A stretch of 64,000 bases of DNA from Bacteroidales bacterium (GTDB lineage: Bacteria; Bacteroidota; Bacteroidia; Bacteroidales; Marinilabiliaceae), in the NCBI GenBank assembly GCA_024401395.1, contig JAKSLD010000008.1:62001-126000 (forward strand). Reading direction: 5' to 3'. Positions 16,814-61,202 of the stretch are shown here, piece after piece. How positions within the stretch are numbered: the first letter of the stretch is position 1; each line of letters begins with the position of its first letter. The position numbers were made by a program, and so were the translations under genes. The notes under the pieces are model-generated. The model was given only the letters and a program-made list of their open reading frames with translations, did no database searches and was not told the origin of the DNA.

Positions 16814-16898
16814 TAAAAAAACTGCGAGCAACAAGGAGCTTCTCTTAATACAGACCGTACTCAGACGGTAGGCATCCCGTATGCTGCGACTTGTCTTC
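16814..16898 (+). repeat. Interspersed head-plus-11-nt repeat, copy 1
   Basis: T plus seven A, then the 11-mers CTGCGAGCAAC (16822) and AAGGAGCTTCT (16833), then about five degenerate 11-nt units; three successive ones (16855, 16866, 16877) have the pattern C-C/G-G-T-A-N-N-C. It lies between the terminators of two convergent operons. No ORF or terminal inverted repeat is attached. The right end is not sharply defined. Confidence 0.75.
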
Positions 16899-21167: not shown

Positions 21168-21230
21168 TAAAAAAACTGCGAGCAACAAGGACCTTCCCCG
21201 AGACTAGCCTTATACTAGCAAGGGGGTTCT
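21168..21230 (+). repeat. Interspersed head-plus-11-nt repeat, copy 2
   Basis: T plus seven A, CTGCGAGCAAC at 21176, AAGGACCTTCC at 21187, then two related units at 21198 and 21209 both ending CTAGC, and a unit at 21220 (AAGGGGGTTCT) that echoes the second head unit. It lies between the ansA promoter element and the ansA ATG (21252). Confidence 0.75.
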
Positions 21231-21251
21231 CTTTGATTATTTTTTGTGTGT

Positions 21252-35100: not shown

Positions 35101-35152
35101 TAAAAAAACTGCGAGCAACAAGGACTCTCATACTACCCACATATAACTCATA
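35101..35152 (+). repeat. Interspersed head-plus-11-nt repeat, copy 3
   Basis: T plus seven A, CTGCGAGCAAC at 35109, AAGGACTCTCA at 35120, then weaker 11-nt units at 35131 and 35142. This copy has the most degenerate tail. Confidence 0.7.
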
Positions 35153-35297
35153 CATGATTTTCCCATAACTTCTGCCCGACTTTTTGATACAACCCTGCGG
35201 ACTCCTTCGCTCTCTATAATGCCTTCTCTATATTGCTTTTTTCTGCTTGGAATCTTATTTTGCCTCATGTTTCGGGTGTAGATTCAACTAATTTCTA

Positions 35298-42258: not shown

Positions 42259-42320
42259 TAAAAAACTGCGATGAACAAGGAGCTTCTCCGTATCTAGCCC
42301 GTACCTAGCCCGAGACTACA
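42259..42320 (+). repeat. Interspersed head-plus-11-nt repeat, copy 4
   Basis: T plus six A, CTGCGATGAAC at 42266 (the GATGAAC variant shared with copy 7), AAGGAGCTTCT at 42277, then three clean units: CCGTATCTAGC (42288), CCGTACCTAGC (42299) and CCGAGACTACA (42310). Confidence 0.78.
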
Positions 42321-48136: not shown

Positions 48137-49375
48137 ATGCGAATACCGTTAAGAATAGCATGGCGTTACCTCTTCGCTAAGAAATCACAGAATATAATTA
48201 ATGTGATCTCTTGGATATCTCTCCTCGGTGTGTTGGTGGGTAGCGCGGCAATTCTTATCGTGCTTAGTGTTTTTAATGGCCTTCATTCTTTCATAGGGTC
48301 TCTCTTTGGTAATTTCGATCCCGACCTTAAAATCGAGATTGTCGAGGGTAAAACTTTTGAGGCGACCGACTCTTTGCTTTCTCTTATCCGTAGGACTGAT
48401 GGGGTGGATATGGCTACTTGTTATCTCGTGGATAATGCTCTTGTCAAATACGATCAGCGCCAGATGCCTGCTATGGTGATGGGTGTTGATGAATATTTTG
48501 GAAGTGTTACTAATATCGATAGCATAACTATATCTGGTCAATACCCTGTATGGAGATTTGAAGACGACAATACGTGTGCTCTCGGGTATGTGCTGGCTCA
48601 GCAGTTGGGGGTTAGCCCTCTGGCTTTCTCTAACCAGCTTATGATATATGCCCCTAAACGTACGGGTAATATCAATATGAGTAATCCCGACCAGTCTTTT
48701 ATCAAGCAGGTGACTTCTGTCTCCAGCACTTTCGCAGTCCAGCAGGTCGATTATGACTCTCAGTATGCTATCATCAGCCTTCCCCAGGCAAGAAAATTAT
48801 TCTGCTATTCTGGTCGCGAAGTGTCGGGTGTCGGTATAAAAACTGCGAGCAACGGCAAGACTGATAGAATACAGGCCGAACTCTCGGAACAACTTGGCCC
48901 TGATTTTTCTGTAAAGAATCGCTGGGAACAGCACTCTTCTTTCTTCCGTATGATGGAGGTCGAGAAGTTTATGGCTTTCTTGATTTTGTTGTTTATCTTG
49001 GCAATCGCCGCTTTTAATATAATAGGTACTCTCTCTATGTTGATCTACGAAAAGAAGGAGAGTATTTTTATCCTTAAGGCTATGGGGGCTACACGGCAAA
49101 TCGTGACTAGGGTCTTCCTCTTCGAGGGCTTGCTTGTTTCTGTGGGTGGAGCACTGATTGGCCTCTTGTTGGGTATAGTATTGGTTCTGTTGCAGCAGAA
49201 TTTCGGTATCATCAATTTTCGAGACTCTTCTTCCTATCTGCTGGAGTCTTATCCGGTCGAATTGGCAGGCTTGGATGTCGTAATCGTATTCGTATCTGTA
49301 ATCATAGTGGGTTATCTCGCCGCTTGGTATCCTGTGCATACTATCGTGCATAGGTATTACGATGAAACAAAATAA
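48137..49375 (+). CDS. LolC/LolE-type ABC transporter permease (FtsX superfamily)
   Basis: 412 residues with the four-helix MacB/FtsX layout: helix 1 near 25-50, a long periplasmic domain (about 55-270), and three C-terminal helices (about 275-300, 325-352, 372-398). FIARRYLFAKK-type N-terminus (here IAWRYLFAKKSQN) and the basic WYPVHTIVHRYY end match lipoprotein-releasing permeases. It probably extracts lipoproteins from the inner membrane together with a LolD ATPase encoded elsewhere. Bases 48837-48882 of the coding sequence match the interspersed repeat family without disturbing the protein. Confidence 0.88.
   Translation: MRIPLRIAWRYLFAKKSQNIINVISWISLLGVLVGSAAILIVLSVFNGLHSFIGSLFGNFDPDLKIEIVEGKTFEATDSLLSLIRRTDGVDMATCYLVDNALVKYDQRQMPAMVMGVDEYFGSVTNIDSITISGQYPVWRFEDDNTCALGYVLAQQLGVSPLAFSNQLMIYAPKRTGNINMSNPDQSFIKQVTSVSSTFAVQQVDYDSQYAIISLPQARKLFCYSGREVSGVGIKTASNGKTDRIQAELSEQLGPDFSVKNRWEQHSSFFRMMEVEKFMAFLILLFILAIAAFNIIGTLSMLIYEKKESIFILKAMGATRQIVTRVFLFEGLLVSVGGALIGLLLGIVLVLLQQNFGIINFRDSSSYLLESYPVELAGLDVVIVFVSVIIVGYLAAWYPVHTIVHRYYDETK
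48837..48882 (+). repeat. Repeat-family-like segment inside the permease gene (copy 8, partial)
   Basis: AAAAACTGCGAGCAAC matches the family head exactly. Reading on at the same offsets, AATACAG, CCG and ACTC also match copy 1 without gaps. The segment encodes KTASNGKTDRIQAEL, an ordinary stretch of the periplasmic domain. Similarity beyond the 16-mer may be partly chance. Confidence 0.5.
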
Positions 49376-49395: not shown

Positions 49396-49480
49396 TAAAA
49401 AAACTGCGAGCAACAAGGGACTTCTCTATGACTAGCGTATGACTAGACGATGTCTAAACGCTGCCTATACACTGTCTCGC
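49396..49480 (+). repeat. Interspersed head-plus-11-nt repeat, copy 5
   Basis: T plus seven A, CTGCGAGCAAC at 49404, AAGGGACTTCT at 49415, then five successive 11-nt units starting at 49426, 49437, 49448, 49459 and 49470 that all fit NNNTGNCTNNN. This is the clearest periodic tail. It lies between two convergent genes and runs up to the stop codon of the next one. Confidence 0.8.
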
Positions 49481-55819: not shown

Positions 55820-55882
55820 TAAAAAAACTGCGAGCAACAAGGATGCTCGCTTAATGCAGCGACTACTCACGCGCTCTTCTCT
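55820..55882 (+). repeat. Interspersed head-plus-11-nt repeat, copy 6
   Basis: T plus seven A, CTGCGAGCAAC at 55828, AAGGATGCTCG at 55839, CTTAATGCAGC at 55850 (close to the third unit of copy 1), then degenerate units. The right end is uncertain and the periodic T/C pattern may continue toward 55930. Confidence 0.72.
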
Positions 55883-55978
55883 CATAGTCCATCAAGTGCC
55901 TTTGCATTGTCTCTGTGCCGTTCTGGTGGCTCTTCTTCTTTATTTTGTTTATTTGCTCTTGTGTGTCTATTTTATTAT

Positions 55979-61139: not shown

Positions 61140-61202
61140 TAAAAAAACTGCGATGAACAAGGACCTTCTCCGTACCTAGCCTGAGTGCAGCCCGAACTTT
61201 CA
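61140..61202 (+). repeat. Interspersed head-plus-11-nt repeat, copy 7
   Basis: T plus seven A, CTGCGATGAAC at 61148 (variant shared with copy 4), AAGGACCTTCT at 61159, CCGTACCTAGC at 61170 (identical to a unit of copy 4), then CTGAGTGCAGC at 61181 and a weaker unit. Confidence 0.76.

Follow-up and report, generated by a model that had tools for sequence, protein, structure and literature searches.

A high-copy, lineage-restricted dispersed element with an 11-nt register in a genus of Bacteroidales

Is the array at positions 49404-49480 of the window (the whole 64,000-nucleotide stretch of Bacteroidales DNA that was analyzed) truly built on an 11-nt register, as an initial annotation of this DNA proposed, and what kind of element would carry such a step? 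Read from its CTGCG head, the array divides into seven 11-mers (CTGCGAGCAAC AAGGGACTTCT CTATGACTAGC GTATGACTAGA CGATGTCTAAA CGCTGCCTATA CACTGTCTCGC), and a direct reading of the sequence agrees with the earlier statement that five successive units of this copy (units 3 to 7 of copy 5) match the single pattern NNNTGNCTNNN. Within the 64-kb window, this array alone displays a lag-11 identity of at least 0.66 over 44 nt; the same threshold applied at lags 8, 9, 10, 12, 13 and 14 returns zero stretches. Its parts are as follows:

49396-49403, + strand: A-run TAAAAAAA, preceding the head of the focal copy
49404-49414, + strand: head unit CTGCGAGCAAC, with head consensus YTRCGAnnAAC
49415-49425, + strand: unit 2, AAGGGACTTCT, the commonest second unit
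49426-49480, + strand: five degenerate 11-nt units, NNNTGNCTNNN, forming the lag-11 block

Seven copies are present in the window, with heads at 16822, 21176, 35109, 42266, 49404, 55828 and 61148 (all on the + strand), where 0.01 head matches would be expected by chance. In addition to the focal copy, these are:

16822-16887, + strand: copy 1, head and five units
21176-21230, + strand: copy 2, head and four units, upstream of an asparaginase-like gene at 21246
35109-35185, + strand: copy 3, head and weak units
42266-42320, + strand: copy 4, head and four units, with CTACA at its end
55828-55893, + strand: copy 6, head and five units
61148-61202, + strand: copy 7, head and four units

Three units of copy 4 open with CCG, just as the annotation had described. 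A head-like sequence, AACTGCGAGCAAC, is also found at 48841-48853, within a lolCE-family permease gene (lolC) and without AAGG; it probably corresponds to native codons or coincidence.

The proposed register was examined across 129 distinct copies that the head pattern gathered from G000, the genome to which the window belongs, through the measurement of base identity in the tail past the two conserved units, against shuffled controls. Identity at lag 11 is 0.508, as compared to 0.264 after shuffling (z=37.6), and is raised again at lag 22 (0.447, z=22) and lag 33 (0.369, z=9). The autocorrelation that the annotation had named as its own check, at lags 9 to 13 over genomic copies, therefore peaks at 11 and not at 9, 10, 12 or 13, where identity in the same 129 copies is no higher than chance; this confirms that the register is real. 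The lag-11 signal in the tail is already evident on the window's 7 copies (z=8.9) and on 33 copies (z=18), and is absent from control DNA located 110-154 nt past the heads. Two congeners likewise have a clear peak at lag 11, G008 at z=10.2 and G010 at z=8.4; in a third congener, G011, lag 11 is weak (z=3.1) and lag 15 is similarly raised (3.4), and the spacings between heads are multiples of 11 in nine of nine cases. Across the four genomes, 36 of 40 tandem head spacings are multiples of 11, and two of the four off-step spacings miss such a multiple by a single base. The register thereby extends past what was first seen in a single array: complete modules, A-run included, recur head to tail at multiples of 11 (44, 55, 66, 77, 88, 110, 121 and 176 nt). 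In arrays of G011 (L113, L115 and L047), CTAG recurs at about 9-10 nt within the larger 11-nt step.

Each copy is laid out as an A-run, then the head, then usually AAGGnnCTTCY, and most often between one and five further units scoring in phase; column information agrees with the earlier description of two conserved units followed by weaker ones. The A-run precedes nearly all copies and, in tandem copies, is itself included in a unit of 11 nt, for instance CAATAAAAAAA. Four head forms dominate (CTGCGAGCAAC, TTACGATGAAC, TTGCGATGAAC and CTGCGATGAAC), the first being the commonest (37 of 129 copies); the invariance of the head letters is partly imposed by the search pattern. AAGG, which was not so imposed, is common and not obligatory (105/129). 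The later units are degenerate and centred on TA(G), with positions 8-9 (T/C, A) best conserved, so that a TA step recurs there in each unit. Letters inside a unit are strongly linked, and units are therefore drawn from a limited vocabulary (for example CTTATACTAGC, CCGAGTGTAGA, ATAGGTCTAGT and AAGGGACTAGA); as read by eye rather than tallied, CTACA followed by AA closes many arrays. The element spans roughly 30-180 bp and has no open reading frame of its own.

The arrays consist of head-to-tail copies of a single unit length, as in a minisatellite. Adjacent units within a copy resemble each other beyond what column composition provides (z 12-14), and this likeness declines with distance, which points to unit duplication. 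The element behaves in the manner of a miniature inverted-repeat transposable element (MITE) but was not filed as one, because nearly all copies lack paired inverted ends (only 2 of 129 have heads that face inward within 165 nt). An old 11-bp tandem repeat without mobility, seeded at A-runs and maintained by replication slippage, would accommodate the resemblance of adjacent units, the slippage-prone nature of the A-run and the retention of the step by modules of 44-176 nt. However, slippage is unable to seed one head at 100-plus unrelated sites, nor can it yield the same body between different flanks in two copies (described below), and units within an array are often less than 60% identical and are thus poor slippage substrates, so that such an origin seems rather improbable.

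A search of genomes with a 20-nt head pattern, allowing one mismatch, returned 173 matches in G000, 42 in G008, 40 in G010 and 76 in G011, and zero in eleven other congeners. Of 294 other genomes sampled in the order, six match, each at a single isolated site. The arrays are thus copies of a high-copy, lineage-restricted dispersed element, which the initial annotation had not recognized; it is confined to four related gut species of the genus, at a density of one copy per roughly 12-19 kb.

Comparisons between copies and between species bear on how the element may have spread and changed. Two copies (L076:18021 and L137:1504), with inward-facing heads, harbor near-identical bodies between unrelated flanks, and those bodies differ by exactly one 11-nt unit. 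At the site of copy 2, G008 has a copy in the matching position with different units, and G011 has no copy; other orthologous sites likewise have a copy in one species that is missing from another. Where orthologous copies are shared, the head, place and strand are kept and the unit sequences differ. Neither a target-site duplication nor an exact intergenic boundary could be read, because the intergenic DNA is too diverged.

One verified insertion lies in coding DNA. In the hrpB genes of G000 and G010 (family identity confirmed as HrpB), KKL is followed by exactly 11 residues that the congeners lack, such that MSATIDASDFAKKLDAPIIESKGR in the congeners becomes MSATIDVDPLIKKL-RATREMQGSSK-GVAHIQSEGR in G000. 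The insertion in G000 comprises 33 nt, or three units, in frame and after an A-run; G010 harbors the same insertion with other units, and in G011 it is present and broken by an assembly gap. The empty site in G001 already has an A-run (native sequence AAAAAAACTC), and the A-run may be either a target or a part of the element. The earlier remark that 11 nt is not a coding multiple accordingly stands for the intergenic copies and fails at hrpB, where exactly three units preserve the frame.

Two further coding matches behave differently. In birA, a head, AAGG and a unit-like stretch are found in G000, with similar stretches in G008 and G011 (L246-L248), and the length of the protein is unchanged in all three relative to element-free congeners; a simple insertion therefore does not explain this case, and either a loss offset the insertion or arrays are able to overwrite resident sequence. 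A match in polA was considered as a copy and judged a coincidence, as congeners have equal length and similar native codons; some coding matches are thus coincidental. The N-terminal region of polA is itself 99% identical between species (L232, L233 and L234, from G000, G008 and G010), as compared to 90% for the asparaginase (G008) and 82% for hrpB (G010), which looks like recent exchange.

Most copies lie between genes, without regard to the direction in which those genes run; a role as terminator or promoter was rejected on the grounds of that random orientation. Neighboring copies nonetheless tend to share a strand (76 same versus 38 switched, permutation p=2e-4). Heads also favor the C-rich strand in regions with local |GC skew| above 0.08, by 30:6 in G000 and 14:1 in G010; with every G000 copy pooled, the preference is a modest 50:29 (p=0.02). 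GC skew is correlated with the coding strand (r=0.58), and the head strand may on that basis be read as the lagging strand. It probably follows replication, with GC skew as a proxy for replication direction.

On balance, with confidence that is just above even, we regard the element as a non-autonomous, MITE-like, high-copy element with a divergent 11-bp minisatellite body, copied on single-stranded lagging-strand DNA at the fork. A trans-acting factor would copy it there, at replication forks, which would produce the strand bias; the head would be the end that this factor recognizes, and new copies would join beside A-runs. The 11-bp units may act as helically phased contact sites for the copying factor or for a nucleoid protein, such that phased contacts would hold the step while duplication, slippage and inter-copy conversion would rewrite the sequences of the units.

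The annotation had also suggested that 11 nt, close to one helical turn, might allow a factor to read the same face repeatedly, and a putative protein that contacts a single face of the DNA at each turn would be consistent with the observations, among them the TA step at positions 8-9 of each unit. That idea can be carried further, to a functional site oriented by replication, in which selected, 11-bp phased binding arrays serve a lineage-specific nucleoid or fork protein and spread is secondary. Several subunits on one face would fit the strict step, and the TA step in every unit, the strand bias with GC skew, the copy density given above and the persistence of orthologous heads while their units drift are all in keeping with it. 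Yet eleven congeners have no copy at all, orthologous places are often empty, placement is random relative to genes, no such protein was found, and the heads were picked by a pattern that makes them invariant partly by construction; we therefore hold this reading to be unlikely.

The companion suggestion, that an RNA pairs in register (or that the arrays form a transcribed regulatory RNA), draws on the equivalence of 11 bp to one A-form turn. It is unsupported, and the least credible of the readings considered here: the arrays fold no more than expected (mean z near 0.1 for one strand and -0.3 for the other), no Rfam family matches them, and they have no preferred direction to genes. A second dispersed repeat, a near-perfect hairpin of ~102 nt (-64 kcal/mol) containing GGTTTACGAAAGCGAC, is found 77-131 nt past the head, on the same strand, at L023, L017, L026 and L150 (also L080); in the examined DNA, where the loci are biased to heads, it occurs downstream of four heads and nowhere else.

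No transposase or cognate protein was found for the element, and no autonomous parent was found among the loci examined. Convergent head pairs at kb distance, considered as possible transposon ends, enclose only host genes. Lagging-strand targeting has been documented for IS608/ISDra2 and other IS200/IS605 elements, and REPs are palindromic hairpins tied to RAYT genes (PMC6006769, PMC3116915). A REP/RAYT-type element moved by a Y1 HUH transposase would exhibit the same strand bias, small size, extragenic location and high copy number, and RAYT-like genes are indeed found in G000, G008 and G010. However, such genes also occur in element-free congeners, none (Y1 or RAYT-like) was found in G011 despite its 76 copies, no head lies near the eleven RAYT-like loci that were checked, and the arrays have neither the hairpin or fold nor the flanked RAYT gene; this origin is largely refuted, and we consider it very improbable.

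G000 has two reverse transcriptase genes, G008 and G010 have one apiece, and none was found in G011; those of G000 may be read, from their open reading frames and neighbors, as DGR-like. At L097, a reverse transcriptase gene adjoins an open reading frame read as a RAYT-like transposase, which has no Pfam match at E<=0.001. A different process again would be a bacterial unit-by-unit repeat writer, in which 11-mers are added beside A-runs from a template as the lagging strand is synthesized, perhaps from a short repeated cDNA, or in steps of about one primer length (~11 nt) at CTA or TTA sites; the limited vocabulary would then be written in place rather than transposed. We think this distinctly doubtful.

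As a rule, the dispersed repeats of bacteria are palindromes or carry one long unit. The mycobacterial MIRU, intergenic minisatellite modules of 40-100 bp that are likewise dispersed, resemble the 11-nt element to that extent; they are not known to have an 11-nt substructure, a head or an orientation with respect to replication. The literature searched contains no account of an 11-nt Bacteroidales repeat. The closest described relative in kind is BrickBuilt of Porphyromonas gingivalis, a dispersed intergenic MITE-like element of the Bacteroidales with an internal imperfect minisatellite and a limited host range, present in 19 copies with a 23-nt unit (AGAYCATARTATCCTCTCRTRTG), a leader and tail with IS5-like terminal inverted repeats, and long stem-loops (PMC4596501). 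Both are dispersed and intergenic with a minisatellite body, and both gain or lose whole units at conserved loci; in contrast, the unit here is 11 nt long and of unrelated sequence, heads match at 173 sites, and the element has a single A-run head, tandem heads in step and a strand bias, but no fold. The Rickettsia palindromic elements, ~150-bp palindromes found mostly in genes and in frame within protein genes (reviewed in PMC10969869), likewise exemplify a small repeat inserted in frame, whereas the 11-nt element is mostly intergenic and has a single verified in-frame insertion, of 33 nt.

The constraint upon this element is almost purely metric: a step of 11 is kept across units, modules and species, while the wording of the units changes freely. 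As hrpB demonstrates, such units can turn into 11 extra residues with the frame of a helicase otherwise intact. The element thus offers a natural test of what fixes a step of this kind, whether helical phasing by a bound protein or the mechanism of copying.
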